A stretch of DNA of 64,000 bases from Hyphomicrobiales bacterium (GTDB taxonomy: Bacteria > Pseudomonadota > Alphaproteobacteria > Rhizobiales > Rhizobiaceae): NCBI GenBank assembly GCA_030456445.1, contig JAKDNM010000001.1, forward strand, positions 1 through 64,000. Reading direction: 5' to 3'. Positions 830-52,588 of the stretch are shown here, piece by piece. The position numbers were made by a program, and so were the translations under genes. Each line of letters opens with the position of its first letter. Position 1 is the stretch's first letter. Below the pieces are notes generated by a model. It saw only the letters and a program-made list of their open reading frames with translations, had not been told where the DNA came from and made no database searches.

Positions 830-3799
830 ATGGCGAAACGTGAACTGCTTACTGACGCCGAGCGGGAACAGTTGCTGGGAATTCCGACGGAGCGGGATGA
901 CCTTGCCAGGCTTTACTCCTTTGAGCCAACGGATATTGACCTGATCCGTCTTCGGCGGGAAGACCGAAATCGCCTTGGCATCGGCCTGCAGATGGCTCTG
1001 TTTCGCCATCCCGGCACGACGCTGGCGCAGGTTCTCAATCGCGTCGCGGAGCCACCTCAAGCATTGCTGTCCTTTATCTCTGAGCAACTCGGCATCCCGG
1101 CCGCAGCGATTGCGGATTATGCGGCCCGTGAGCAGACGATGACGGATCATGCTCGCGAACTCGCCGTGGCTTTTGGTCTCCGCGGTCCGGCCAGGACCGA
1201 CATTCCCTTCATGATCGAGATGGCGGCCAACGCCGCGTGGCCAACCGACAAGGGCGTCGTGATTGCCGCTGGCGTGATCGACGCCTTGCGCCAGGCGAAA
1301 ATCCTTCTGCCATCGATTTCGACGATTGAGCGTGCCGGAATTGCCGGTCGGGCGCGGGCCCGAAAACAGGCCACGCACGCTCTTCTGTCCGGCCTGGGTC
1401 TGGAGAAGTTGGAGAGTCTCGATGCTCTGTTCGTCGCCGATCCCGGCACGGGCATCACTCCGATCGCCTGGCTGAAAGCCATACCTGGTGCGGCAAAGCC
1501 GGATCATGTCCGCGGCATTCTCGACCGGCTGCGATTTGTGCGGAATATCGGCATTCCGGCAAAAGCCAGCGCTACGATCCATCCCGACCGCTATCGTCAA
1601 TTCGTGCGCGAGGGCCGGGCATCGCCTGCTTACCTGATCGAGCGTTATACCGTGGCGCGCCGGCGCGCCACTCTTGTTGTCTTCCTGATCGATCTCGAAG
1701 AGCGGCTGACCGATGCCGCGATCGAAATGGCCGACAAGTTGATCGGCACAATGTTCGCCCGGGCGAAAAACACGCAGGCCCGGAAGTATGTCGCGACGTC
1801 GAAAGACGTATCACGACTGATGCGGCTGTTTCGAGGCACGATCGATGCGCTTTCAGCGGCGCTCGAAAATGATGCCGATCCCATTGAGGCGATCGATGAA
1901 TCCGTTGGATGGGCTACCTTGCTCAAGGTCAGGCACGAAGTCGCGGCAATCGCTGAAACGGCCGGCGAGGATCCGCTCATAGTGGCAGTTGACCGCTATG
2001 CGACGCTCAGGAAATTCGCTCCGGCGCTGATCGAAGCGCTTGAGTTCAAGGCCGGGCGCGGCAGCGCGCGCACGATTGCCGCGATCCGTATCCTTCGCGA
2101 ACTGAACAGATCGGGCAAGCGCGACGTTCCGCCCGATGCGCCCATGCCATTCAAGAAGGAGTGGCGCAAGCTGGTCATCGGGCCGGACGGCAAGATCAAT
2201 CGCCGCCTCTACGAAACGGCTACCCTGGCCCATCTCCGCAACAAGCTGCGCTCGGGTGATGTATGGGTCGAGCGGTCTTCAGCCTACCGTCGCTTCGACA
2301 GCTACCTGTTGCCGGAATCCGCCGCCGCTCCGATTGCGTCGGCATTGGGATTGCCGGCGACCGCCGATGAATGGCTCGATCAGCGCGGCAGAGAACTCAA
2401 CTGGCGGCTGAAACGGTTCTCGCAACGCCTCAAGCGGAACCAGCTCGAGGGAGTCAGCTTCATCGACGGCCGCTTGGCTATCACACCCGTCAGGGCCGCC
2501 GCACCCACCGATGCGGAGGCACTGGCCGATCGGCTCGATGCCATGATGCCGCGCATCCGCGTGACCGAACTGTTGCATGAGGTCGCCCGCGAAACCGGGT
2601 TCATGGCGGCGTTCACGAATCTCCGCACAGGAGAGAAATGCCCCAACGAAAGCGCGTTGCTGGCGGCGATCCTGGCCGACGCCACCAATCTCGGCCTTTC
2701 CCGAATGGCCGCCGCCAGTCAAGGCGTCACCCGCGATCAGCTCGTCTGGACCCAGGACGCCTATATCCGCGAGGACACGTACAACGCTGCCCTCGCTGCC
2801 ATCATCAATGCTCATCACCGTCTGCCGATCGCCGAAGTCTGGGGCGACGGCACGACCTCAAGTTCGGATGGGCAGTTCTTCCGCGGCGGGAAACGCGCCG
2901 CCTCGGGCGGCGATATCAATGCCCGTTATGGTGTCGATCCCGGGTTCAGCTTCTACACCCATGTCTCCGATCAGCACGGACCCTACCACGCCAAGGTCAT
3001 CTCGGCTGCGACGCATGAAGCGCCTTACGTTCTCGACGGCCTGCTGCACCATGGCAGCAATCTCAGCATCGCGGAGCACTACACCGACACCGGCGGCGCG
3101 ACCGATCACGTCTTCGCGCTCTGCGCCATGCTCGGATTCCGCTTCTGCCCCAGATTGCGGGACTTCCCGGACCGGCGGCTGATCCCGATCGATCTTCCCG
3201 CCGCCTATCCTGGTATCGCACCGCTTCTGGGAAAACGCATCCGCACCGATGTCATTCGCGAGCACTGGGATGAAGTGGTGCGTCTCGTCGCGTCGCTGAA
3301 GGCAGGCCACGTCGCGCCGTCGGTGATGCTGAGAAAGCTCGCCGCCTACGAGCGGCAGAACCAGGTCGATGTCGCTCTCCAAGAAATTGGCAAGATCGAG
3401 CGCACCCTGTTCATGCTCGACTGGTTGGAAAACCCGGCGCTCCGGCGCCGCTGTCAGGCCGGACTCAACAAGAGCGAACAGCGTCATGCGCTCACCCAGG
3501 CCATATGTACATTCCGGCAGGGCCGGATCATTGATCGCAGCCACGAGGCCCAGCAATATCGTGCCTCCGGACTGAACCTCGTCATTGCCGCGATTGTCTA
3601 CTGGAACTCCACCTATATCGCCGACGCCGTGGACCATCTGCGATCAACAGGCGAATCTGCCCCCGATGACCTTATGGTTCACACCTCACCGGTCGGGTGG
3701 GAGCATATCGCCTTCTCCGGCGATTTCCTCTGGGATCGCGCCGCACAGGCGACAAGTCGCAAGCTGCTCAATCTGTCGTCCAAAAGGCAGGCGGCATGA
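830..3799 (+). CDS. tnpA: Tn3-family transposase, 989 aa
   Basis: Full-length Tn3 transposase features: N-terminal LLTDAEREQLLGIP, and C-terminal DGTTSSSDGQFF, HHGSNLSIAEHYTDTGGATDHVFALCAMLGFRFCPRLRD. Confidence 0.97.
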   Translation: MAKRELLTDAEREQLLGIPTERDDLARLYSFEPTDIDLIRLRREDRNRLGIGLQMALFRHPGTTLAQVLNRVAEPPQALLSFISEQLGIPAAAIADYAAREQTMTDHARELAVAFGLRGPARTDIPFMIEMAANAAWPTDKGVVIAAGVIDALRQAKILLPSISTIERAGIAGRARARKQATHALLSGLGLEKLESLDALFVADPGTGITPIAWLKAIPGAAKPDHVRGILDRLRFVRNIGIPAKASATIHPDRYRQFVREGRASPAYLIERYTVARRRATLVVFLIDLEERLTDAAIEMADKLIGTMFARAKNTQARKYVATSKDVSRLMRLFRGTIDALSAALENDADPIEAIDESVGWATLLKVRHEVAAIAETAGEDPLIVAVDRYATLRKFAPALIEALEFKAGRGSARTIAAIRILRELNRSGKRDVPPDAPMPFKKEWRKLVIGPDGKINRRLYETATLAHLRNKLRSGDVWVERSSAYRRFDSYLLPESAAAPIASALGLPATADEWLDQRGRELNWRLKRFSQRLKRNQLEGVSFIDGRLAITPVRAAAPTDAEALADRLDAMMPRIRVTELLHEVARETGFMAAFTNLRTGEKCPNESALLAAILADATNLGLSRMAAASQGVTRDQLVWTQDAYIREDTYNAALAAIINAHHRLPIAEVWGDGTTSSSDGQFFRGGKRAASGGDINARYGVDPGFSFYTHVSDQHGPYHAKVISAATHEAPYVLDGLLHHGSNLSIAEHYTDTGGATDHVFALCAMLGFRFCPRLRDFPDRRLIPIDLPAAYPGIAPLLGKRIRTDVIREHWDEVVRLVASLKAGHVAPSVMLRKLAAYERQNQVDVALQEIGKIERTLFMLDWLENPALRRRCQAGLNKSEQRHALTQAICTFRQGRIIDRSHEAQQYRASGLNLVIAAIVYWNSTYIADAVDHLRSTGESAPDDLMVHTSPVGWEHIAFSGDFLWDRAAQATSRKLLNLSSKRQAA

Positions 3800-3860: not shown

Positions 3861-5461
3861 AAAAGGATTGCGAGTCTCTCGTGATCCACTTCCTTCATGC
3901 CTATGCCAACCCAGCCCATGAACTGCGCGCTGGAGAGATCGCCCGCGAGATGTGGCCGAATGGGAATGTGACGCTGGGCCATGCCCTGCTCTCTGAATGT
4001 CGTGAATTCGAACGCGGGGTGACCGCTGCCGTCAACGCTTCGGTGCAGCCACTTCTGGCCCGGTATGTCGAACACCTTGCCGACCAGCTTGCAGCCAAGG
4101 GCTATCGGCACGAAGTGCTCGTCATGAACGGCAATGGCGGCATGGTTTCGGCGCGGTATGTCGCGAAAGAAGCGGCGAAGACCATCATGTCCGGACCGGC
4201 CTCCGGCGTCATGGCTGCCGCCTATACCGGCCGCCGCGCCGGCATCTCCGACCTCATTACCTATGACATGGGTGGTACCTCGACCGATGTTGCGCTGATC
4301 CGCAACGCCGAACCGGCGGTATCGAACGAGATCGAGATCGAATATGCAATGCCGATCCATGTGCCCATGGTGGACGTTCGCACCATCGGCGCCGGCGGCG
4401 GCTCGATTGCCCGCGTGACGGCGGCAGGCCTCCTTCAGGTCGGGCCGGAAAGTGCCGGCGCCTCTCCGGGGCCTATCTGTTACGGCCGCGGCGGGCTCAA
4501 ACCGACCATCTCGGACGCCAACCTGCTGCTCGGCAGGCTCAACCCCGCAAGGCTCAACTCCGGCCCCGGCGGCATGTCCATCGACGGAATCCGTGAGATC
4601 TTTGCTCGCGATCTCGGAGCACCACTCGGCCTCGACGCCATTGGCGCCGCAACTGCGGTCCTGCGCATAGCCAACGCCCGGATGGCAGACGCCGTGCGAA
4701 TGGTTTCGGTCAGCCTCGGTGAAGACCCCCGCGACTTTGCCCTGTTTTCCTTCGGCGGCGCCGGACCGTTGCATGCAACGTCGATCGCCCGCGAACTTGG
4801 AATCCCGCGGGTTCTGACCCCCTCGCGCCCAGGGATCACCAATGCGCTCGGTTGCGTCGTCGCGGACCTGCGGCACGATTTTGTCAACACCGTCAACCGC
4901 CAGCTCGACATTGCCGACATGAACGCTGTGCACGCACTCTTCAAGAAGCAGTCCACAGAAGGGCGCAGGCTGATCAACAAGGAAGCCGTCGCTATCCGCG
5001 AAATTCGAGAGTTTTGGTCCGTGGATATGCAGTTCATTGGCCAAACGCATCTGTTGCGCGTTCCCCTGTCAGGCCCGACGCCGACACGCGCCGAACTGCA
5101 GCAGCGCTTCGAGGAGGCCTATTTCAGCCGTTTTCGCGTCGAGTTGCCGGAAATACGTGCCAGCTTGGTCAACGTTAATACGTCTGTCATCGGACGGCGC
5201 ACCGAGGTCGATCTCTCCATCCTGATTGACCCTTCGGGTCGAAAGGCATCCCTGGAAGAAGCGCAAACGGATACCCGGCCGGTATGGTTCGACGACTGGA
5301 TCGAAACGCCGATCTATTGGCGCGACCATCTGCCGAAGACGGCTACGATATCAGGTCCCGCCATTATCGAGCAGATGGACACGACTATCATTCTCGATCC
5401 GGGCGACATCGCCGAACAGGACGGCGACGGCAACATCATCATCAGGATTGGAGGCGCATAA
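3861..5461 (+). pseudogene. hyuA: Hydantoinase/oxoprolinase HyuA, N-terminally truncated by the Tn3 element (remaining ORF from GTG 3881)
   Basis: SLVIHFLHAYANPAHE, MNGNGGMVSA, MSGPASGV, TYDMGGTSTDVAL, SFGGAGPLHA. The homologous frame starts at the Tn right end (KKDCESLVIHFLH); the usual ~150-aa N-terminal domain is missing. Confidence 0.85.
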
Positions 5462-7209: not shown

Positions 7210-7471
7210 CACTCGTCGGCACTCGTGTTCACCAGCACGACCCCATCACTCCGCCCAAGGGCGGCCGATGCCACCGGGAACACGGTAGCTTGGTTCCACA
7301 CTGCCCTTTTATGCGACTTTGGCTACGGCAGCAGAACTGGAAAAATGGCTTTTGGACTCTCGTCTCAAGTGACCTGATAGCGCCATTTCAAGGCACTTGA
7401 CTTGAGTGCCATCAACGTTGGGAGCGTTTTGGCGGCGGCACGGGCAGTTTTCGGCAGACGGAAGGAACATT

Positions 7472-7735
7472 CTATCGGAAGTCGGCGGCCGTCAGAATGT
7501 ACGAGGTTTGGCGCCCGTGGGAATAGGCTTTACGGGCAACGTCGTGAATCGAGTTGCGCGCCGCGTCGAATGCGGTCAGGGATTCTGCTTCCGATAGTTC
7601 TTTTCTGCCTGACTTCGTCAATGCGCCAGACTCGACAAAGAACGGCACCTCGGACATGCCGTCATAGCCGGAGAAGCGTACCGCATTTCTTGCTTCGTCG
7701 AAGCTGCGGGATGAGTTCGGAAAGGCCAGTGTCAT
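7472..7735 (-). CDS. DUF1488-family small protein
   Basis: MTLAFPNSSRSFDEARNAVRFSGYDGMSEVPFFVE... matches the DUF1488 pattern; overlaps the upstream ORF by 4 bp (ATGA). Confidence 0.7.
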   Translation of the reverse strand: MTLAFPNSSRSFDEARNAVRFSGYDGMSEVPFFVESGALTKSGRKELSEAESLTAFDAARNSIHDVARKAYSHGRQTSYILTAADFR

Positions 7736-8058
7736 GTCTCGCATACTCCCGTCTCGGTCGCGCTCTGGGCAAGCGCCGACAGCCTGATCCGTTCTTTCCG
7801 GCGACCGGTACCACGACGATTGAGAGACATCATGCCATCGGTTGCGTCCGACCGACTGAGGCCGACCATGGCATCGCCGCCGGCACGCACCGGCACGCCG
7901 GTGAAGACGTGATAGACGGTCCATGAGCGATCCGGCTCGATGCGGCGACCGAATAGACCCTCGACCGGCTCGCGGCCTGGTGCGCCACCCTCGTTCTCCC
8001 AGGTGTCGATCGCAATTGCACTTGGCCCGCTGGCGGCTCCGCTGTCTTGTAACTTCAT
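7732..8058 (-). CDS. Conserved small hypothetical protein
   Basis: MKLQDSGAASGPSAIAIDTWENEGGAPGREPVEGLFGRRIEPDRSWTVYHVFTGVPVRAGGDAMVGLSRSDATDGM; coupled with the DUF1488 gene. Confidence 0.55.
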   Translation of the reverse strand: MKLQDSGAASGPSAIAIDTWENEGGAPGREPVEGLFGRRIEPDRSWTVYHVFTGVPVRAGGDAMVGLSRSDATDGMMSLNRRGTGRRKERIRLSALAQSATETGVCET

Positions 8059-8162
8059 GAGGGGACCTTTCTTCACCGACCCGGGATCGAAACACCGGAA
8101 TAGACTTTGCGCCACTCGCGTCAGCCTTCGGTGACCTGAGTGTAGAGCACTCGCCCCGACAG

Positions 8163-8306
8163 TCAGCCCTTGCTCTTGCCGCCCGGTGCGGCGGCATTCG
8201 CGGCTTGCTTCATCTGTGCGCCGAATGACCCTTCAACCTTGGGCGATACCTTCGCCCGCTTCGATTTTCTGATCTCGCGGCTGCTGCGTTTCTGTCCCTT
8301 GGCCAT
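8163..8306 (-). CDS. 47-aa Lys/Arg-rich small protein
   Basis: MAKGQKRSSREIRKSKRAKVSPKVEGSFGAQMKQAANAAAPGGKSKG, read manually; below the length cutoff of the supplied track. Confidence 0.5.
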   Translation of the reverse strand: MAKGQKRSSREIRKSKRAKVSPKVEGSFGAQMKQAANAAAPGGKSKG

Positions 8307-8598
8307 GGCCGAACGTCCTTTCGATGAGAGCGGTGCGATCGCCGGGAGCCGCCAAACGGACTTGCTCGAGATTGTCTTCGGTCACCACTCGCTCATACCG
8401 TTCGTCGTCGTTGCGAATTCGGTATTGCAGCGAACGTCCCACCGGCGGGAGCCTACTGGTGATGCGGTAGATGTCGCCCAGATTGGGCGATGTTCCGAAT
8501 CCGCCCTTCAGCCGGACAGTCTGCCCGATCGCGAATAGATGCGTTGCCGCTTCACGCCTGATAGGGCGACCGTGTCGCATGAGGGACGGTATAATCAT
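8233..8598 (-). CDS. Conserved hypothetical protein
   Basis: GQTVRLKGGFGTSPNLGDIYRITSRLPPVGRSLQYRIRNDDERYERVVTEDNLEQVR; resembles small rhizobial hypotheticals. Confidence 0.5.
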   Translation of the reverse strand: MIIPSLMRHGRPIRREAATHLFAIGQTVRLKGGFGTSPNLGDIYRITSRLPPVGRSLQYRIRNDDERYERVVTEDNLEQVRLAAPGDRTALIERTFGHGQGTETQQPRDQKIEAGEGIAQG

Positions 8599-8858
8599 CT
8601 CTGTCCGGAATCCTTTGTCAGGGCAGCCTCAAGGTCTGCCGAATTGATAGGCACCATCTGTTGCGTCAAACCCTGCGCGGCGATTGCCGGGAGGTGGATG
8701 AAGGAGCCGACACGCCGCCAGGCAATCCGGGAGACGCCGTCGATTGCTTCCTCGTCGTGGTCGACGCGGTATTCCCCAGCCGGCTGCGGCGCGTCAAAAC
8801 CAGGTAGCCGGAAATCGGAAGTGAAGTGGACGACAGTCTGGTTAGTGCGCGTGGTCAT
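8595..8858 (-). CDS. Conserved hypothetical protein, 87 aa
   Basis: MTTRTNQTVVHFTSDFRLPGFDAPQPAGEYRVDHDEEAIDGVSRIAWRRVGSFIHLPA; overlaps the next ORF by 4 bp. Confidence 0.55.
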   Translation of the reverse strand: MTTRTNQTVVHFTSDFRLPGFDAPQPAGEYRVDHDEEAIDGVSRIAWRRVGSFIHLPAIAAQGLTQQMVPINSADLEAALTKDSGQR

Positions 8859-9272
8859 GGTTGCGGTTCTCCGCAAGAGCACGCACATGCGGCCCCTGAT
8901 TGTTCCCATTCGAACCCGAACGATCCCGGTGCTGCCAGTACATCCGTGGTCAACGCCGGTTTCATCAAGGTTCGAACAGAGCGCCGTGCGCGCCGGTTTC
9001 GGCCTTACGCATGCGCTGACGAGAAATCGGTAACGTGTGGCGGGTAGGCAGGTCTCTGACACCGCGAAAGCCAAATTGGCGAAATCAACGTACTTTACAT
9101 ATGCGCTCTGTTTGACGACAAACAAGACGTCTTGCCTATTTTATTACGATGCGACGCTAATGATAATGCATTCTCCGCGTCTTAATTCGAGAAATTACAC
9201 CTTCAATGCGCATATCTATCTGATGGTGGCAAATCATCATTTTCGATAATTCGAAATGCCCTGGAATTGTCT

Positions 9273-9301
9273 TTGGCACTCCTATCATTCGAGTGCCAAA
9301 G
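9273..9301. promoter_or_regulatory. CIRCE element (HrcA operator) upstream of groES
   Basis: TTTGGCACTC-N9-GAGTGCCAAA, perfect inverted repeat with 9-nt spacer, 55 bp before groES. Confidence 0.9.
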
Positions 9302-9355
9302 AGCGTATACGTCGGAGGCGGTTGCCCTACGCACCGGCCGCAGAAAGAACCCCCA

Positions 9356-9670
9356 ATGAAATTCCGGCCACTCCACGACCGCGTCGTCATCCGACGCGCG
9401 GAAGGCGATATCAAATCCAGGGGCGGGATCATCATCCCCGACAACGCCAAGGAAAAACCTCAAGAAGGCGAAGTGATCGCGGCCGGCCCCGGCTCGCGGG
9501 ACGAAGGCGGCAAGCTCATCCCGCTCGACGTGAAAGCCGGCGATCTCTTCCTGTTCGGCAAATGGTCCAGCACCGAAATCAAGATCGACGGCGAAGACCT
9601 TCTGATCATGAAGGAGGCGGACATCATGGGCATCGTCGAAAAGGCCGTATCGGCCAAGAAAGCCGCCTGA
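9356..9670 (+). CDS. groES: Co-chaperonin GroES
   Basis: [46 protein letters not shown]. Confidence 0.97.
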
Positions 9671-11350
<1,680 letters not shown>

Positions 11351-12552: not shown

Positions 12553-12898
12553 GTGACGCATTCCACGTCGAGCAGACGACCCATCGCGCTGGTGGTCGAT
12601 GACGAGCCTTTGATCGAGATGGAAGCCGTCGATCTCTTTCACGATCTTGGCTAAGGCGATCGGCACGCGCAACGCCGACCAGGCGATGCTTATTTTGCGC
12701 GCGAGAGACGACGTCTCGCTCGTCTTCACCGACATCGAAATGCCAGGCACGATGAATGGCCTTGTTCTGGCGGCCAGAACCGCGCCGCCGGATGAAATGC
12801 TGCTGGGCCGCGCGCGGTTCTTGCCGAAGCCGTATGACAGGAAGCAGATCGAGCAAGCATTGGCATCGGGGGCAGCTTCAGGTAGCCTTGCACCATGA
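12553..12898 (+). pseudogene. Response regulator receiver protein, frameshifted and internally deleted
   Basis: Frame 1 VTHSTSSRRPIALVVDDEPLIEMEAVDLFHDLG*; then another frame gives DQAMLILRARDDVSLVFTDIEMPGTMNGLVLAARTAPPDEMLLGRARFLPKPYDRKQIEQAL. Confidence 0.75.
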
Positions 12899-14256
12899 CG
12901 AGTTCGAGCGATGATCCGGTGCTGGATCAATCACTACTCGACGGGAACCGTCCGACGGGCCGCCATCACATCGTCATAGTGGGCGCAGGCTTCGGTGGGT
13001 TGGAGGCAGTCCACCGGCTCGCGGGGGCGCCTGTCGACATTACGCTGATCGACCAGAGAAACCACCATCTGTTCCAGCCGCTGCTCTATCAGGTCGCAAC
13101 CGCGTCATTGGCAACGTCCGAGATTGCATGGCCGATACGTTACCTTTTGCGCGGACGTCCGGAAGTTGAGACCTTGCTCGCGACGGTACTTGGCGTCGAT
13201 ACGGATGCCCGTCGTGTGATGCTCGATGGCGGCGAAGCCGTCTCCTACGATACGCTCGTTCTCGCCACCGGTGCCAGGCATGCCTATTTCGGCCATGACG
13301 AATGGGAGCCGTTTGCTCTCGGCCTGAAAACGCTCGAGGACGCCACGACGATCAGGCGTCGTATCCTGCTCGCCTTCGAGCGTGCGGAACGCGAAACCGA
13401 TCCGCGCCGACAGGCCGCGCTCTTGACCTTCGTCATCATCGGCGCCGGCCCCACCGGCGTGGAACTCGCCGGCACAATCGCGGAATTGGCGCGCGATACG
13501 CTGGCGCCGGATTTCCGCAACATCGACACGAGGAAAGCCCGCATCGTTCTCATCGAAGCTGGTTCGCGCGTATTGGCGGGTTATCCCGACGATCTGTCCG
13601 CCTATGCGCAACACTCGCTCGAAAGCCTTGGTGTCGAAGTCGAACTCGACCAACCCGTCACCGACTGCACGGCTGAAGGTGTCGTCTATGGCGGTCGAAG
13701 CCTGGCAGCCAAGACCATTATCTGGGCTGCCGGCGTGCAGGCCTCTCCCGCCGCCGAATGGCTCGGCGCGCCAGCCGACCGCGCCGGACGACTATTGGTC
13801 CTTCCTGACCTCACCATTCCCGGTCACCCGGATGTCTTTGCGATCGGCGATACGGTGACGATACCCGGTCCAGATGGAAAGCCGGTCCCCGGTATCGCGC
13901 CCGCCGCGAAACAACAGGGGCGCCACGTCGCCGAATCCATCAAGGCTCGGCTACGCGGTGACGCCGCTGTTCGTCCCTTCCGCTACCATCACGACGGCAG
14001 CCTGGCGCAGATCGGCAAGCGCCGTGCCGTAATCGACTTTGGCTGGATCAAGCTCCGGGGCTCTCTCGCTTGGTGGATCTGGGGCATCGCGCACATCTAT
14101 TTTCTGATCGGCGTGCGTAACCGGCTAAGCGTCGCGCTGTCCTGGTTGTGGATATACGCGCGCAACCAGCGCAGCGCCCGCCTGATCACACAGGGCCAAA
14201 AGGACAACATAGTGGCTGAGAGACCTACCAATAGCTCGCCGACGAACCCACATTGA
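12895..14256 (+). CDS. ndh: Type II NADH dehydrogenase (NDH-2), FAD-dependent
   Basis: HIVIVGAGFGGLEAVHRL, NHHLFQPLLYQVATA, IIGAGPTGVELAG, FAIGD, APAAKQQGRHVA. Confidence 0.9.
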   Translation: MTSSSDDPVLDQSLLDGNRPTGRHHIVIVGAGFGGLEAVHRLAGAPVDITLIDQRNHHLFQPLLYQVATASLATSEIAWPIRYLLRGRPEVETLLATVLGVDTDARRVMLDGGEAVSYDTLVLATGARHAYFGHDEWEPFALGLKTLEDATTIRRRILLAFERAERETDPRRQAALLTFVIIGAGPTGVELAGTIAELARDTLAPDFRNIDTRKARIVLIEAGSRVLAGYPDDLSAYAQHSLESLGVEVELDQPVTDCTAEGVVYGGRSLAAKTIIWAAGVQASPAAEWLGAPADRAGRLLVLPDLTIPGHPDVFAIGDTVTIPGPDGKPVPGIAPAAKQQGRHVAESIKARLRGDAAVRPFRYHHDGSLAQIGKRRAVIDFGWIKLRGSLAWWIWGIAHIYFLIGVRNRLSVALSWLWIYARNQRSARLITQGQKDNIVAERPTNSSPTNPH

Positions 14257-14392: not shown

Positions 14393-14830
14393 TCAGGCTG
14401 CGAGGCCCAGCCGCCGGCGAAGCGCGCCAGCGCGCGGGAGGGTATCGGCGAGGCTACGGGCGTCGAGCGTCGAGAAGAACGCCTCTTGCGCCTCGGCCAT
14501 GAGCGGTGAGAGGCCGCACACGGGGGCGATGACGCACGTTACGGTGCCGTCTCGCAGGCACTCGACGGGTCCCGACCCTGCCTCCGCTCGACGCAGCACA
14601 TCGCCGATCGATATCTCCGCCGGCGGTCGTGCGAGGCGCATCCCACCGCCTCGCCCGCGCGAAGTCTTCACGAATCCTTCACGGCCAAGGAACTGCACGA
14701 TCTTGGCGATATGGTCGAAGGACAGCCGATAACGCTCAGCAATCTCGCGCGCCGGCACCTGCCGGTCGCCGGCGACGGCGAGGTACATCAGGATGCGGAG
14801 CGCATAGTCGGAATAGAAGGTGAGATGCAT
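14393..14830 (-). CDS. Rrf2-family Fe-S regulator, NsrR/RirA-like
   Basis: MHLTFYSDYALRILMYLAV..., HTH, and C-X7-C-X5-C cluster motif (ECLRDGTVTCVIAPVC). Confidence 0.88.
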   Translation of the reverse strand: MHLTFYSDYALRILMYLAVAGDRQVPAREIAERYRLSFDHIAKIVQFLGREGFVKTSRGRGGGMRLARPPAEISIGDVLRRAEAGSGPVECLRDGTVTCVIAPVCGLSPLMAEAQEAFFSTLDARSLADTLPRAGALRRRLGLAA

Positions 14831-14880
14831 GAGAGCCTTTTTGATACGGAAGCATTGACAGCGCAAGGTTTGGAATATTA

Positions 14881-14903
14881 AATCGGTATTTACGATACTG
14901 ATT
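14881..14903. promoter_or_regulatory. Candidate operator for the divergent Rrf2 regulator / norS-like operon
   Basis: Inverted repeat AATCGGTAT-N5-ATACTGATT (8/9 bp arms) in the divergent intergenic region. Confidence 0.45.
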
Positions 14904-14968
14904 ATAGCGGGCAGATCACAAGCAGGCATATTAGTTACCGAACAAGCAAAGCGCGGGAGGGACACGCG

Positions 14969-15466
14969 ATGCAGATGACGGTTCTAGCATTAAGCCTCAT
15001 TCTCATGGCCGTTATTGCCTGGGCTTTCCTCTCTGCGGCGCGTGCCGCGGGCACCGGGTCGATCGCCACAAACACCGAATCCCGGCGCAAATGGCTCATC
15101 GTGGGGCTCGTGGTCGTCGGCGTCGCGGTCACCGCGCTTTCGCTCCGGCCTTGGCCCCTTGCCGTGGCGGCAACGTCAGCCGTCGTCAACGTCTCCGGCG
15201 GGCAATGGTACTGGGAGATCGACACCGACAAGGTGCCGCTGGGCCAGCCGGTGGCGTTCAACGTCCATACAGTCGACGTGAACCATGGCTTCGGGGTAAT
15301 GGACGAAGCCGGGCGCATGCTGTTCCAGGTTCAGGCCATGCCCGGCTACGTCAACCAGGTGGAATACACCTTCGATACCCCCGGCTCCTACCACGTGGTC
15401 TGCCTCGAATATTGTGGCGTCGCGCATCACGACATGGCCACCGACTTCACCGTCGCGTCCGAATGA
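14969..15466 (+). CDS. CuA-type heme-copper subunit II (NorS-like)
   Basis: N-terminal TM helices, GQWYWEID, VDVNHGFGVMD, CuA motif CLEYCGVAHHDM. Confidence 0.85.
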   Translation: MQMTVLALSLILMAVIAWAFLSAARAAGTGSIATNTESRRKWLIVGLVVVGVAVTALSLRPWPLAVAATSAVVNVSGGQWYWEIDTDKVPLGQPVAFNVHTVDVNHGFGVMDEAGRMLFQVQAMPGYVNQVEYTFDTPGSYHVVCLEYCGVAHHDMATDFTVASE

Positions 15467-15476
15467 GGGATCCCGC

Positions 15477-16928
15477 ATGACCGCCATCGTCGAAACGCGC
15501 GGCGCTGCCGCTATCGTCCCGCAAACAGGCGCCGTGAAGCTGACCATGCTGCTGGCCGGCGTCGTGATCCTGCTCATGATGATCTTCGGATTGACCATGC
15601 GCGCCGCACAGGGCGGGCTGATCCAACTCGATCCGGCGCTGTTCTACCAGATCATGACCGCACACGGGGCGGGAATGGTCGGCGCTGCCGGGCTCACCGG
15701 CGCCGCGATCCTCTGGTATTTCACCGGACGTTACGTGGAACTCCTGCCCGGTGTTTTCTGGGCCTTTCTGGGGCTCTTCCTGCTCGGCGTGGTCCTTATC
15801 CTCGGGGCGATCTTCGTGGGCGGTTACGCCGGGGCGTGGACGTTCCTGTATCCATTGCCGGCCATGTCGGGCGGGCTGTGGGCGCCCGGAGCGGCGATCA
15901 TCTTCCTGCTGGGTTATGTCTCGATCGGCGTGGGCTTCCTGCTGCTCCACCTGGAAGTGGGGCGCAAGCTGATTGGCGCCTATGGCGGTATCGGCGGGGC
16001 ACTGGCATGGCCGGTGGCCTTCGGCAACGGTCGCCCGGAGGATGCGCCGCCGGCCACCGTAGTCGCCGCCATGGCCTCGACCATCTTCAATACGCTCGGC
16101 ATCGTGGTGGGCGCGGCCGTGCTGGTGGCCAGCATCGTCAACCTCGCTTTTCCGGCCTTCGCCGTCGACGCGCTCCTGGCCAAGAACATGATCTTCTTCT
16201 TCGGCCATGTGTTCATCAATGCTGCGATCTATATGGCGGTGATCGCGGTCTACGAGATCGTGCCGGAATATACCGGCAAACCGTGGAAGACGACGCGGAT
16301 GTTCGCCATCGCCTGGACGGTGGTGCTTCTGTTCGTGCTGGCGGTCTACCCGCACCACCTGATGCAGGATTGGGCGATGCCGGTCTGGGCGGTGGTGATG
16401 GGGCAGATCGTCTCCTATTTCTCTGCCATTCCGCTGATCGCCGTCACCGCCTTCTCGCTTCTGGTCTATCTGCGCGGCGCCAAGTCGATGCGCTGGGACC
16501 TGGCCTCGGCGCTGCTCGTGCTCGGCGTCGCCGGCTGGACCGCGGGTTCGGTGCCCGCCGTCCTCGACGGCATGATCGTGGTCAACAAGGTGATGCACAA
16601 CACCCAATGGGTGCCGGGGCACTTCCACACCTACCTGATACTTGGCGAAGTGGCGATGGCCTTCGGTTTCATGGCTTGGCTCGCCAGGCGCGGGGACGAG
16701 GGGCTCTCCGGTCTGCCGGGCGCCTTCTTCTGGGCCTACGCGGCGGGAGGAACGGGATTCGTCGTGATGTTCCTGATCTCAGGGGCAATGTCGATCCCGC
16801 GCCGCTGGGCGGTGCATCTGCCGCAATGGCACTTGCAGGCGCAGATCGCGTCCGCCTTCGCGGTGTTGATCATTCTGGCGACGGCGGCCCTCCTGCTGCG
16901 CTACCTGATGCGGGTCGGAAAGGGCTGA
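15477..16928 (+). CDS. Heme-copper oxidoreductase subunit I, probable sNOR-type NO reductase (NorY-like)
   Basis: Six-His set: TAHGAGM, FFGHVFIN, YPHHLMQDW, WVPGHFHTYL. The helix VI H-x3-Y of A/B-type oxidases is H-VFI-N here. Confidence 0.82.
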   Translation: MTAIVETRGAAAIVPQTGAVKLTMLLAGVVILLMMIFGLTMRAAQGGLIQLDPALFYQIMTAHGAGMVGAAGLTGAAILWYFTGRYVELLPGVFWAFLGLFLLGVVLILGAIFVGGYAGAWTFLYPLPAMSGGLWAPGAAIIFLLGYVSIGVGFLLLHLEVGRKLIGAYGGIGGALAWPVAFGNGRPEDAPPATVVAAMASTIFNTLGIVVGAAVLVASIVNLAFPAFAVDALLAKNMIFFFGHVFINAAIYMAVIAVYEIVPEYTGKPWKTTRMFAIAWTVVLLFVLAVYPHHLMQDWAMPVWAVVMGQIVSYFSAIPLIAVTAFSLLVYLRGAKSMRWDLASALLVLGVAGWTAGSVPAVLDGMIVVNKVMHNTQWVPGHFHTYLILGEVAMAFGFMAWLARRGDEGLSGLPGAFFWAYAAGGTGFVVMFLISGAMSIPRRWAVHLPQWHLQAQIASAFAVLIILATAALLLRYLMRVGKG

Positions 16929-16932
16929 GCAC

Positions 16933-17535
16933 GTGCATCCGTTGGTTGCCAGCCTTGCCGTCCTGCTCGCCGGCGGCGCTGTGCTGTGGCAAGCGACCGA
17001 CGGGTTTGCGGCTCTGACGACCGAGCGCGCTCGGCGTCTCAGCGCCCTCACCGACATGCCCGCCGTGCCCGCCTTCCCGGTCGAGACGATGACGGGCGAG
17101 CGGCTCTTGCTGCCACCGCAAGACCGGAAGGCGACGGTTGTCGAGTTCATCTACACCAACTGCCCCACCATCTGTCAGGCGGCGGGAGCAGAGATGGCGC
17201 GCTTGCGTGACCGCTTGGCCAACGAGCCGTTCGCGGGGCGTGTGCGGCTGGTGTCCCTGTCCTTCGATCCCACGCGCGATACGCCCGGGCAGATGGCGGA
17301 ATACGGCCGCTGGCATGGCGCCGACGGCCCGATCTGGACGGTGGCGCGACCGGAAGACGACGCCCTTCCTGCCTTGCTGGAAGCCTATGGAGTGACGGTC
17401 ATCCCTGACCGCGCGGGCGGCTTCACCCACAACGCCGCGCTGCATGTCGTCTCGCCCGATGGGCGGCTGACGGCGATCCTCGACATGGACGACATCGACG
17501 GAGCCGAAAAGGCGCTCGAGAGAGCCTTGCGATGA
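16933..17535 (+). CDS. SCO1/SenC family copper chaperone-like protein
   Basis: VVEFIYTNCPTICQAAGAEM (CxxxC-type copper site), SFDPTRDTPGQM. Confidence 0.88.
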   Translation: MHPLVASLAVLLAGGAVLWQATDGFAALTTERARRLSALTDMPAVPAFPVETMTGERLLLPPQDRKATVVEFIYTNCPTICQAAGAEMARLRDRLANEPFAGRVRLVSLSFDPTRDTPGQMAEYGRWHGADGPIWTVARPEDDALPALLEAYGVTVIPDRAGGFTHNAALHVVSPDGRLTAILDMDDIDGAEKALERALR

Positions 17536-18149
17536 ACGCGCGCCTTGTCTGGGCCACGGGCCTGATCGCCGTCGCCGCGTTGTTTCGCAACTCGCTTGAG
17601 GCCATCCCCTTGACCCATATGCTGGTGCAATTGCCCGTCCTTGCGCTGGCCGGCGCGCTCACCGCCCCATACTTGCGCTTCGGGCGGGGCGACTGGAACC
17701 GTGGCGGCTGGCCCTGCCTGCTGGCGGCAGGGTTCGGAATTGCCTTCTGGATGCTGCCGCGCAGCATCGACGCGACGCTGGCCGATATCCGCTGGGAGGT
17801 CGCGAAGTTTCTGACCTTGCCGCTTCTGGTGGGGCTGCCGCTGGCTGCCGGATACGCGCGCGCGCACCCGCTCACCCGTGCCGTGATCAAGGCGCAGACC
17901 GTATCGATGTTGGCGGTGATGGCCTTTCTCTACACCCACGCGCCGATGCGGTTGTGCAACGCCTATCTGGCGGAAGACCAATATCGACTGGGCATCGGCT
18001 TTCTCGCACTCGCCTTTGCCCTCGCCGCCGCCTGGACCACTCCGTTGCTGTTTGCGACCCGGCAACAAGCTTCTGGCCGTCAGCCTGGCGCCGGAGGAAG
18101 CAGGGGAACCGTCGATGACAGCAAGGAGGAAACACTATGCGTGCAATAG
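17532..18149 (+). CDS. Multi-pass membrane protein (orf1-like, of norSY-senC-orf1 type clusters)
   Basis: Several hydrophobic segments; start overlaps the senC stop by 4 bp; position after senC. Confidence 0.65.
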   Translation: MNARLVWATGLIAVAALFRNSLEAIPLTHMLVQLPVLALAGALTAPYLRFGRGDWNRGGWPCLLAAGFGIAFWMLPRSIDATLADIRWEVAKFLTLPLLVGLPLAAGYARAHPLTRAVIKAQTVSMLAVMAFLYTHAPMRLCNAYLAEDQYRLGIGFLALAFALAAAWTTPLLFATRQQASGRQPGAGGSRGTVDDSKEETLCVQ

Positions 18150-18517
18150 CGATACTTGGCGCTCTATTTACAGCCACACTGATGACAGGCCATGCCCTGG
18201 CGCAGGATGCCGCCGCCGGCGAGAAGGTCTTTAACAAATGCAAGGCCTGCCACGACGCCGCACAGGACAAGAACAAGATCGGACCATCGCTCCACGGCGT
18301 TATCGGCCGCACCGCCGGCACGCATGAAGGGTACAAGTATTCGCCCGCCATGATCGAAGCGGGCAAGTCGGGCGTGGTCTGGGACGAGGCCACGCTGACC
18401 AACTACCTCCACGATCCCAAGGCGACGGTCAAAGGCAACAAGATGGCGTTCCCCGGCCTGAAGAGCGACGAGGACATCGCAAATGTCATCGCCTATCTGG
18501 AGCAGGAATCACAGTAG
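18137..18517 (+). CDS. Class I c-type cytochrome (c2/c550-like) with signal peptide
   Basis: MRAIAILGALFTATLMTGHALAQ; CKACH heme motif; NKIGPSLHGVIGRTAG; NKMAFPGL Met ligand region. Confidence 0.93.
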   Translation: MRAIAILGALFTATLMTGHALAQDAAAGEKVFNKCKACHDAAQDKNKIGPSLHGVIGRTAGTHEGYKYSPAMIEAGKSGVVWDEATLTNYLHDPKATVKGNKMAFPGLKSDEDIANVIAYLEQESQ

Positions 18518-26795: not shown

Positions 26796-27650
26796 CTATT
26801 TCTGTTCGGCCTCCAGTTCCTTCTCGAAGGCGATGCGCGACTGTTCGACGATGTCATGCAGCAGGCCGGGTTCAACGAAAGCGGCCTTGTCGCCGGCGTC
26901 CAGCTTGGCTTTTCGTTCAAACAGGCCGGTCACTTGTGGATGCGAAGGCAAGACAATTTCGGCCTTCATAGCGCCGAGCCGTTCGAAGCTCGTGCGGAAA
27001 TCCGCGACAATACCCGGATAGCCCCTGTTGCCGACCAGGGCGTTGCCCGCGACGCTGATGCTGCAGGGAAAGATGACCTGCCGTTCCATCCCCTCGTCGG
27101 TATCCTTCAGCGACCATGTCGTGCAGCCCTTGGTATGGCCGGGCGTGAGCGTGGCCGTCATACGAAGCTCACCGAGCGCAACGACGTCGCCGTCATGCAG
27201 CACCTTGTCCACCTTGACCGCCGGGAAGCGGATGACGCCATAATTGGTGGCGCCTTCCGGCGTGCCGCTCTCAAGCGCGCGCTTGTCTTGCTCCATGGCT
27301 ATGAACGTCGCGCCCGTGTCGCGCTTCAATTGTGCGATTCCGGCCGCATGGTCATAATGGGCATGGCTGTTGAGGATGATTTTCACATCCTCAAGTTTGA
27401 ATCCCAAGGCCTCGATATTGTCTTCGATCGGCCCGGCATTTTCGGCAAGCGTTCCATCGAGCAGGATAGCCCGCCCGTCCGACAGCAGCAGATAGGAAGC
27501 CAGCCCCCGCGTGCCGACATAATAGATGTTATCGGTAATCTTGAACGGCTTTGTCGGTTGACTCCAGATAGCCGGCGGGGCCGCAATGGCGCATGCACCG
27601 CTGTTTATGCTGAAAGCCAATGCCAGCGCCGATACCGGTATTTTTCTCAT
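26796..27650 (-). CDS. Subclass B3 metallo-beta-lactamase
   Basis: Signal peptide; NSHAHYDHAAGI (HxHxDH), TPGHTKGCTTW, LPSHPQ metal-ligand positions. Confidence 0.87.
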   Translation of the reverse strand: MRKIPVSALALAFSINSGACAIAAPPAIWSQPTKPFKITDNIYYVGTRGLASYLLLSDGRAILLDGTLAENAGPIEDNIEALGFKLEDVKIILNSHAHYDHAAGIAQLKRDTGATFIAMEQDKRALESGTPEGATNYGVIRFPAVKVDKVLHDGDVVALGELRMTATLTPGHTKGCTTWSLKDTDEGMERQVIFPCSISVAGNALVGNRGYPGIVADFRTSFERLGAMKAEIVLPSHPQVTGLFERKAKLDAGDKAAFVEPGLLHDIVEQSRIAFEKELEAEQK

Positions 27651-38727: not shown

Positions 38728-39567
38728 TTATGCGGCCTGTTTATCCAGAGCGATTTTCAAAGCGAACTCGCTGGGTGTGATGTTGCCCAGCGAAGAGTGT
38801 GGTCTGTTTCGGTTGTAGTCCTCCTTCCATGCTGTGATTTCTGTCCTGGCCTGCGTCAGAGACGAGAACAGCGTTTCGTTGAGGCATTCGTCACGGAAGC
38901 TGCCGTTGAAGCTTTCCACGAAGCCGTTCTGCATCGGCTTGCCCGGTGCGATGTAATGCCACTCAACCTGGCTGCCCTGGCACCATTCGAGAACGGCCAT
39001 GCTCGTCATCTCCGTTCCATTGTCGGAGACAATCGTTCGTGGCTTTCCTCGGCGCACGATGACGGCATCGAGTTTCCGCGCAAGCCGCCGACCTGAGAGC
39101 GACGTGTCGGCGACCAGCGCCAGGCATTCGCGGGTGAAGTCATCGACAACGGCCAGGACCCGAAAGCGGCGACCATCCGTAAAAGCGTCGCTGATGAAGT
39201 CGAGGCTCCAGCGCTCGTTCGGACGCGAGGGCAGTGCCAAAGGTCGTCGCGTTCCCAAGGCCCGCTTGCGCCCGCCACGTTTGCGCACCGTCAGATTCTC
39301 TTCCCGATAGAGACGCCGCAGCTTCTTCAGGTTCATGACGATCCCCTGCCGACCCAGCATGACGTGAATGCGCCGATACCCGAAACGACGACGCTCGCAC
39401 GCCACCAGTTTCATAGCCTCACGGATATGAGCATCATCAGGCCGAATGCTGCGGTATCGCATGCTCGACCGGTCAACCGACAAAACCTCACACGCCCGAC
39501 GCTGGCTCACACCATGCTTCTCGCAGACATGAACCACAGCATCCCGCTTTACATCGGGCGTCACCAT
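38728..39567 (-). CDS. IS3-family transposase OrfB (DDE)
   Basis: [59 protein letters not shown]. Confidence 0.95.
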
Positions 39568-51588: not shown

Positions 51589-52588
51589 TGTAGATATGTC
51601 GGTACTCGCGGGACATTTCCATTAGCTTCCCAATTCTGGGACGATGGAGATGCACATGAGCAAGGATCAGCGCGAGATACAGCGCAAGCTACGCATTCTG
51701 AGGCATGCGGACGAGACTGGGCATGTTGCGAAGACCTGCCGGTATTTTGGGGTCGGTCGCAGCAGCTTCTACCGTTGGCGTGAAGCCTATCGGAAACACG
51801 GCGACCCCGGTTTGGTGAATCACCCGCCCATTCCTAAATGGCACGCCAACAGAACGCCTATCGAGATCGAGGAGAAGGTTCTCCATCTCCGGAGCAAATA
51901 TCATCTCGGGCCCATGCGCATCGTTTGGTATCTGGCGCGGTATCACGACATCAAGGTATCAGACGCGACCGTCTCCCGAATATTGAAACGCAATGGCGTC
52001 AACCGCCTTCCGCGCGGCACCCGCCTGCGCAAGGTCCATACCAAGCGTTACAACAAGCAGGCTCCCGGCCACCACATTCAGATGGACGTCAAGTTCCTGA
52101 CTTTCAAAGGGGCGCGCGGTGAAAAGGTTCGGCGCTTTCAGTTCACTGCTATTGATGACGCGACAAGGGTGCGGGCTCTGAAAATCTACGAGAAACACAC
52201 CCAGGCCAGCGCCACCGACTTCGTCGACCACATCATCGAGAAGTTCCCGTTTCGAATCCGTGAGATCAGGACCGACAACGGCCACGAATTCCAGGCAAAA
52301 TTCCACTGGCACGTCGAGGACAAGGGCATTCGTCACGCATATATCAGACGCGGTACCCCGCAGTTGAATGGCAAGGTCGAGCGCTCACACCGATCAGATC
52401 AGCAGGAATTCTATCAACTGCTCAGCTACAAGGATGACGTCGATCTCGAAGCAAAACTTGGCCAATGGGAGCAATTCTACAACTTCGCTCGACCGCACGG
52501 AGCCTTCAACGGAAAGACACCTTACGAGGCGCTCCGCGAAAAGCTATAGTCGCACCACGAAATGTCCCAAGAGCACCTGCAGCTTACA
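51589..52588 (+). mobile_element. IS481-family-like insertion sequence, about 1000 bp
   Basis: TGT...ACA ends with imperfect inverted repeats sharing GGGACATTT; one DDE transposase; no obvious target duplication. Confidence 0.7.
51644..52549 (+). CDS. IS481-like DDE transposase
   Basis: KTCRYFGVGRSSFYRWREAYRKHGDPGLVNHPPIPK...QMDVKFLTFKGARG...IRTDNGHEFQAKFHWHVEDKGIRHAYIRRGTPQLNGKVERSHRSDQQEFYQ. Confidence 0.93.
   Translation: MEMHMSKDQREIQRKLRILRHADETGHVAKTCRYFGVGRSSFYRWREAYRKHGDPGLVNHPPIPKWHANRTPIEIEEKVLHLRSKYHLGPMRIVWYLARYHDIKVSDATVSRILKRNGVNRLPRGTRLRKVHTKRYNKQAPGHHIQMDVKFLTFKGARGEKVRRFQFTAIDDATRVRALKIYEKHTQASATDFVDHIIEKFPFRIREIRTDNGHEFQAKFHWHVEDKGIRHAYIRRGTPQLNGKVERSHRSDQQEFYQLLSYKDDVDLEAKLGQWEQFYNFARPHGAFNGKTPYEALREKL

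Follow-up and report, generated by a model that had tools for sequence, protein, structure and literature searches.

The window, by which we mean the whole 64,000-nucleotide stretch of Hyphomicrobiales DNA analyzed here, contains between positions 14393 and 18517 a gene coding for an Rrf2-family regulator and, divergently oriented, a tightly packed operon beginning with norS, in which adjacent genes are separated by a few bases or overlap. The regulator gene lies on the minus strand (14393-14830; PF02082, 112 bits); its probable real start is at 14830, giving a protein of 145 aa, the longer open reading frame to 14965 being merely mechanical. The C-X7-C-X5-C cysteine spacing reported for this protein in a preliminary description of the locus is present (CLRDGTVTCVIAPVC). 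All the other genes lie on the plus strand. The first, norS (14969-15466), codes for a CuA-type subunit II (PF00116, 33.4 bits) with its CuA ligands present in a motif that reads as intact (C-LEY-C-GVA-H-HD-M), and is followed by norY (15477-16928), which codes for the sNOR catalytic subunit I (PF00115, 143.7 bits), an assignment based on alignment, tree and structural model. Next come a gene for a SCO1/SenC copper chaperone (16933-17535; PF02630, 52.9 bits), which probably acts in CuA/CuB assembly, and orf1 (17532-18149), coding for a hydrophobic protein that is conserved with the operon, has zero family matches in Pfam and is presumably a membrane protein. The last gene (18137-18517; PF00034, 40.8 bits) codes for a class I c-type cytochrome with a CKACH motif and a signal-peptide-like start, whose nearest NCBIfam model is CycA c-550 (114 bits, under the cut-off of 240) and which is the likely electron donor. 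The open reading frame list and the family searches bore out the gene content, order, strands and coordinates proposed earlier for this segment. Upstream, the NADH dehydrogenase 2 gene (12895-14256) was considered as a part of the module and discarded, as it is absent from related loci. A groEL/Cpn60 gene coding for 544 aa lies further upstream, at 9716-11350.

A putative sigma-70-type promoter for norS was read from the sequence at 14855-14883 on the plus strand, with TTGACA at 14855 and a -10 element, TATTAA or TTAAAT, at a spacing of 15-17 bp; TTGACA is also found in the homologous intergenic regions of loci L038, L047, L044, L050, L057 and L073. Overlapping the -10 region is a predicted NsrR-type operator, AATCGGTATTTACGATACTGATT (14881-14903, no strand assigned), a 23-bp inverted repeat of the form 11-1-11. 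The repeat found in the Rrf2/norS intergenic regions has the consensus AATAnGYATTTnAAATRCnTATT, to which the operator in the window matches at 17 of 22 positions, a score equaled by none of 200 dinucleotide shuffles. Likewise, 37 of the 39 homologous regions beat dinucleotide-shuffled versions of themselves at P ≤ 0.05, and 31 did so at P ≤ 0.01, in a scoring that is partly circular since the consensus was drawn from the same regions. With up to two mismatches allowed, the operator pattern occurs at two sites in the 4.08-Mb genome, which are those of its two sNOR copies (see below), while a reversed control pattern occurs at none. The predicted operator resembles NsrR sites in length, symmetry and its GYATTT core, and we take it to differ from the RirA type. 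Its core, GYATTT-N-AAATRC, matches the enterobacterial half-site AAGATGTATTT, described for NsrR of E. coli and Salmonella (PMC10783083), at 9 of 11 positions. An operator apparently dedicated to two sNOR operons strengthens the regulatory part of the interpretation given below, and a partial search of the literature found no earlier report of this Rrf2/operator pair.

We aligned 90 family members of subunit I with 29 reference heme-copper proteins, classed by motif as A-type, cbb3, cNOR (Glu at H+4), B-type, bNOR-like (one Asn-bearing protein of the B clade) and eNOR-like (two Gln-bearing proteins); NorY residues are numbered with R at 15474 as residue 1. The six His ligands of the two hemes and CuB (H64, H245, H294, H295, H383 and H385) are invariant in the family, and Asn249, at H245+4 in the motif GHVFIN249, is Asn in all 89 homologues covering the column. 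Both features on which the preliminary description had relied, the full His set and the helix VI Asn, are thus present and family-wide. Asn is also the published active-site residue of sNOR, which is listed for Betaproteobacteria, Silicibacter (as the genus of Ruegeria pomeroyi was formerly called), Deinococcus and Geobacillus (PMC8756737, Table A4). The equivalent of the helix VII Tyr of cbb3 oxidases had been placed at TTR (276-278), taken to correspond to SYR. That position is wrong: in the alignment, the Tyr of the cbb3 references falls in the column of V288, six residues ahead of the HH pair. The claim that no Tyr stands there holds, the column being Val in 86 of 89 family members and Tyr in all four cbb3 references. 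With N249 at H+4 and V288 at the helix VII site, NorY carries Tyr at neither of the sites that characterize the A/B/C oxygen reductases, and equivalents of the A-type channel residues D132, N139, E286 and K362 are absent as well. Conversely, Y253, Y292, D365 and Y387 are invariant residues specific to the family. Y253 is at H+8, the site of the second Glu in cNOR, Y292 is two residues before the HH pair, the site of Trp in the A-type WAHH, and Y387 is two after the HFH motif; the three tyrosines could lie near the heme/CuB center. The AlphaFold model of NorY (mean pLDDT 88.1, pTM 0.91) has a fold that matches heme-copper oxidases.

To place 15477-16928 in the heme-copper superfamily, we used a tree of 52 subunit I proteins, 25 of them from the sNOR family, in which the sNOR anchor is the Ruegeria pomeroyi homologue, the N. 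europaea sequence lying outside the tree. All 25 family members, including the R. pomeroyi megaplasmid protein, fall on one branch (100/100), apart from the A, cNOR and cbb3 branches (each 100/100), eNOR (100/100) and the B group with its bNOR-like protein. NorY accordingly groups with the R. pomeroyi sNOR homologue and separately from the O2-reducing A/B/C oxidases, as had been anticipated. A union of sNOR with bNOR, represented by one bNOR-like reference only, was rejected (AU test, P = 0.005). Neither a union of sNOR with all of the B group (P = 0.18) nor one with C/cNOR (P = 0.36) was rejected, and either may reflect the deep origin of sNOR. The B-type oxidase label used in PMC6967387 was not retained, sNOR being outside the sampled B clade, although a sister relation to B was not rejected (P = 0.18). 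By its sequence, the operon is a member of the already known sNOR type. Some proteins met in this survey depart from the pattern: subunit I of L195, on the Thermomicrobium roseum megaplasmid, and of L198 has Gln at the Tyr position and is eNOR-like, so that T. roseum carries an eNOR-like gene and an sNOR on one plasmid. A PF00115 protein from a genome of the same genus (L196, contig C1023 of G002) has Gly where the Tyr would stand and GHSH in place of GHFH, and forms a long branch beside cbb3.

The gene order norSY-senC-orf1 is the one named for ammonia oxidizers (PMC4940428), and the preliminary description was right in recognizing it in the window. A contig scan of genomes yielded 80 named loci from Alpha-, Beta- and Gammaproteobacteria and one Bacillota isolate, the Thermomicrobium homologue having been found through a plasmid search. 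Neighborhoods were counted over 86 loci with both subunits, and contig ends make the counts lower bounds: SCO is present in at least 82 loci, orf1 in 81, a transporter of the FNT (formate/nitrite) family in 53, a directly divergent Rrf2 gene in 41 and a truncated hemoglobin in 20, with a cytochrome c near the operon in merely 14. Since it recurs in 86 loci, the gene set is more than a chance association. An FNT gene was found neither in the window nor elsewhere in its genome. The closest relative is the locus of a Hyphomicrobiales metagenome-assembled genome (L047), with a subunit I 93% identical to that of the window, in which two CRP/FNR regulators, nirK and a gene coding for a nirV-like FGE-sulfatase protein lie in the region downstream of the sNOR operon, at 7352-11083; its NirK matches TIGR02376 at 539 bits (cut-off 296). 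In the Roseobacteraceae loci L068, L070, L075, L076, L087 and L044, the sNOR operon adjoins cbb3 oxidase genes and a truncated hemoglobin gene, and in R. pomeroyi it adjoins a full ccoNOQP set together with heme and cytochrome c biogenesis genes.

The genome (93% complete) contains a second sNOR copy on another contig (C95; L038, 7136-9019), which has its own Rrf2 gene and operator and is truncated by the contig end. The two copies share ~93% protein identity and 87% DNA identity over 1.9 kb, with different upstream neighbors: those of the second copy code for an ECF-type sigma factor, an anti-sigma-like protein and a secreted-repeat protein. The PF00115 proteins of the genome comprise oxidases of the A and cbb3 types, the two sNORs and one more partial match on C227, which is unclassed; apart from this match, no cNOR or qNOR is among them. 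NirK was not found in the genome, and a candidate nirS on contig C151 was dismissed as too weak, consisting of three overlapping Cytochrom_D1 matches in one 493-aa frame (20-31 bits each, ~60 together).

At high similarity, the sNOR family occurs in one other genome among 80 relatives and in 4 of a further 384 genomes from the class; on these counts the distribution of the operon is patchy. The operon has a GC content of 64%, compared with about 58-60% in most of the window. Transposase genes are found in the window, of the Tn3 type at 830-3799 and with an integrase core at 38728-39567 (IS3-like) and 51644-52549 (another type), but none flanks the operon. The mobile accessory region proposed in the preliminary description is thus only suggested, by the patchy distribution and by transposases situated elsewhere in the window, and we regard mobility of the operon as plausible. 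Beside the Tn3-family transposase, a hydantoinase-type gene (3881-5461) seems to lack a start, as if interrupted. Elsewhere in the window, 26796-27650 codes for a secreted protein of the metallo-beta-lactamase superfamily (PF00753) that by its motif looks like subclass B3.

We are fairly confident that the locus codes for a two-subunit, cytochrome c-fed NO reductase of the sNOR family under the control of its own NO-sensing repressor. The clade, Asn249 and the missing Tyr support the original assignment to an sNOR NO reductase rather than a terminal oxidase, and the FNT, truncated hemoglobin and nirK/nirV-like neighbors of related loci supply a nitrogen-oxide context. The sequence analysis establishes the genes, their key residues, the placement in the family and the operator together with its specificity across the genome; how NO is sensed and the operon repressed, what the substrate is, which route electrons take and what the enzyme is for are what we infer, as follows. 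Without NO, the Fe-S Rrf2 protein would occupy the repeat at 14881-14903, which overlaps the norS promoter, and silence the operon. Attack of NO on the Fe-S cluster would release the repressor, thereby turning on norS, norY, SCO, orf1 and the cytochrome c gene. SCO would load copper, and the c-type cytochrome would hand electrons to CuA in NorS, from where they would reach heme and then the heme/CuB center of NorY, at which two NO would be reduced to N2O. Asn249 would stand in for the cross-linked Tyr on which clean four-electron reduction of O2 depends, and orf1 would be a conserved partner in the NO-reductase module.

In its own organism the enzyme would serve detoxification, not respiration. 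That sNOR is instead a respiratory NO reductase of denitrification, paired with a nitrite reductase, appears unlikely, though nirK stands beside the operon in L047 and NirK is commoner in sNOR genomes (10 of 49, against 18 of 289 Alphaproteobacteria; Fisher's test, P = 0.003, which ignores kinship and compares a set of 49 that includes other classes). Detoxification fits better because neither nirK nor a convincing nirS was found in this genome and 39 of the 49 sNOR genomes have no NirK. The same gap, with no NirK and only weak partial Cytochrom_D1 matches in the genome, also counts against the NO-reductase model itself, as would a location of Y253, Y292 or Y387 near the heme/CuB center.

In the main alternative, the enzyme would be a high-affinity terminal oxidase acting chiefly on O2 at low tension, NO reduction would be a side reaction, and the regulator would answer redox or O2 stress. 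Such a role was proposed in 2020 for sNOR of N. europaea, whose transcripts rose 2.7- to 10.8-fold under O2 limitation (PMC6967387), and it agrees with the retention of the CuA subunit and the full CuB His set, unlike in cNOR, and with the proximity of cbb3 genes in several Roseobacteraceae. We nevertheless find it improbable, given that NorY has a cross-linked Tyr at neither the A/B nor the C position and lacks the A-type D- and K-channel residues, that its operator is of the NsrR type and its relatives have FNT, truncated hemoglobin and nirK as neighbors, and that A-type and cbb3 oxidases are already encoded in the genome.

The scores of the Rrf2 regulator against the RirA model (106 bits, cut-off 193) and the NsrR model (93 bits, cut-off 182) both miss the cut-off, while elsewhere the genome codes for a clear RirA (270 bits) and for another protein that fits NsrR best among the models (133 bits, likewise short of the cut-off). 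In an Rrf2 tree with some long branches elsewhere, the alphaproteobacterial regulators linked to sNOR group in a single clade (26 rows, 99/99) that excludes the RirA of this genome, its NsrR-like protein and E. coli NsrR. What had been called an NsrR/RirA-like regulator does belong to the Rrf2 family and has an NsrR-type operator; its place in a separate clade sets it apart from both NsrR and RirA proper. According to Rodionov et al. (2005), NsrR is nearly missing from Alphaproteobacteria (PMC1274295). That the Rrf2 protein senses iron as RirA does, so that the operon would answer iron status and not NO, is improbable: it shares its cysteine spacing with the RirA of this genome and scores slightly higher with the RirA model than with that of NsrR, but a clear RirA exists elsewhere in the genome, the protein falls in a distinct sNOR-linked clade, and the NsrR-type operator is found at the sNOR operons only, not at iron genes.

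The sNOR enzyme type was already known, though little studied; what this analysis adds is a dedicated regulator clade with its predicted operator, the presence of two copies, and the result that sNOR is the sole NO reductase found in this genome. We further propose, as an idea whose chances we consider evenly balanced, that a third Rrf2 sensor clade travelled with sNOR across Alphaproteobacteria and controls only the sNOR operon via its own NsrR-like operator, making up a self-contained, transferable NO-defense unit in whose enzyme Asn249 and the invariant Tyr253 and Tyr292 replace the cross-linked Tyr. Genes for sNOR are often annotated as cytochrome oxidases, that of R. pomeroyi being 'cbb3-type' in PLSDB, and a capacity to produce N2O is therefore missed. 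The role of sNOR is also disputed between NO removal and O2 respiration. An NsrR-type switch kept across dozens of genomes, with two sites in this one, favors NO as the physiological signal. Such a dedicated switch makes the disputed role directly testable.

Compared with known regulators, the Rrf2 protein shares with NsrR of E. coli and Salmonella its family, three Cys, a 23-bp 11-1-11 operator and the GYATTT core, and differs in its cysteine spacing (C-X7-C-X5-C, where E. coli NsrR has CSSEFCHITPAC), in its separate clade and in scoring below the NsrR cut-off. With RirA it has the cysteine spacing and the Rrf2 family in common, whereas the true RirA of this organism is encoded elsewhere in the genome. 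As for the enzyme, cNOR (NorCB) likewise draws electrons from cytochrome c to reduce NO, as we predict for the NorSY of the window, but has Glu at H+4 and H+8, lacks CuA and is very distant. eNOR is also a two-subunit, cupredoxin-type NO reductase, with Gln for Asn and a separate clade (100/100). The bNOR/CuANOR of Bacillus resembles NorSY in its CuA subunit and in Asn at the same position (Pseudogracilibacillus C6b), but lies inside the B-oxidase clade, and its union with sNOR was rejected. The closest match is sNOR/NorSY of ammonia oxidizers and of Silicibacter (Ruegeria) pomeroyi, with which the operon has the CuA subunit, Asn at H+4, SCO/SenC, orf1 and the gene order in common; on the R. 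pomeroyi megaplasmid the order is the same and subunit I is 65% identical to that of the window. Unlike these known sNOR loci, the window has a c-type cytochrome gene after orf1 and no FNT gene, and, in a comparison based on the R. pomeroyi sequence, it adds a documented dedicated Rrf2 regulator and a shared predicted operator.
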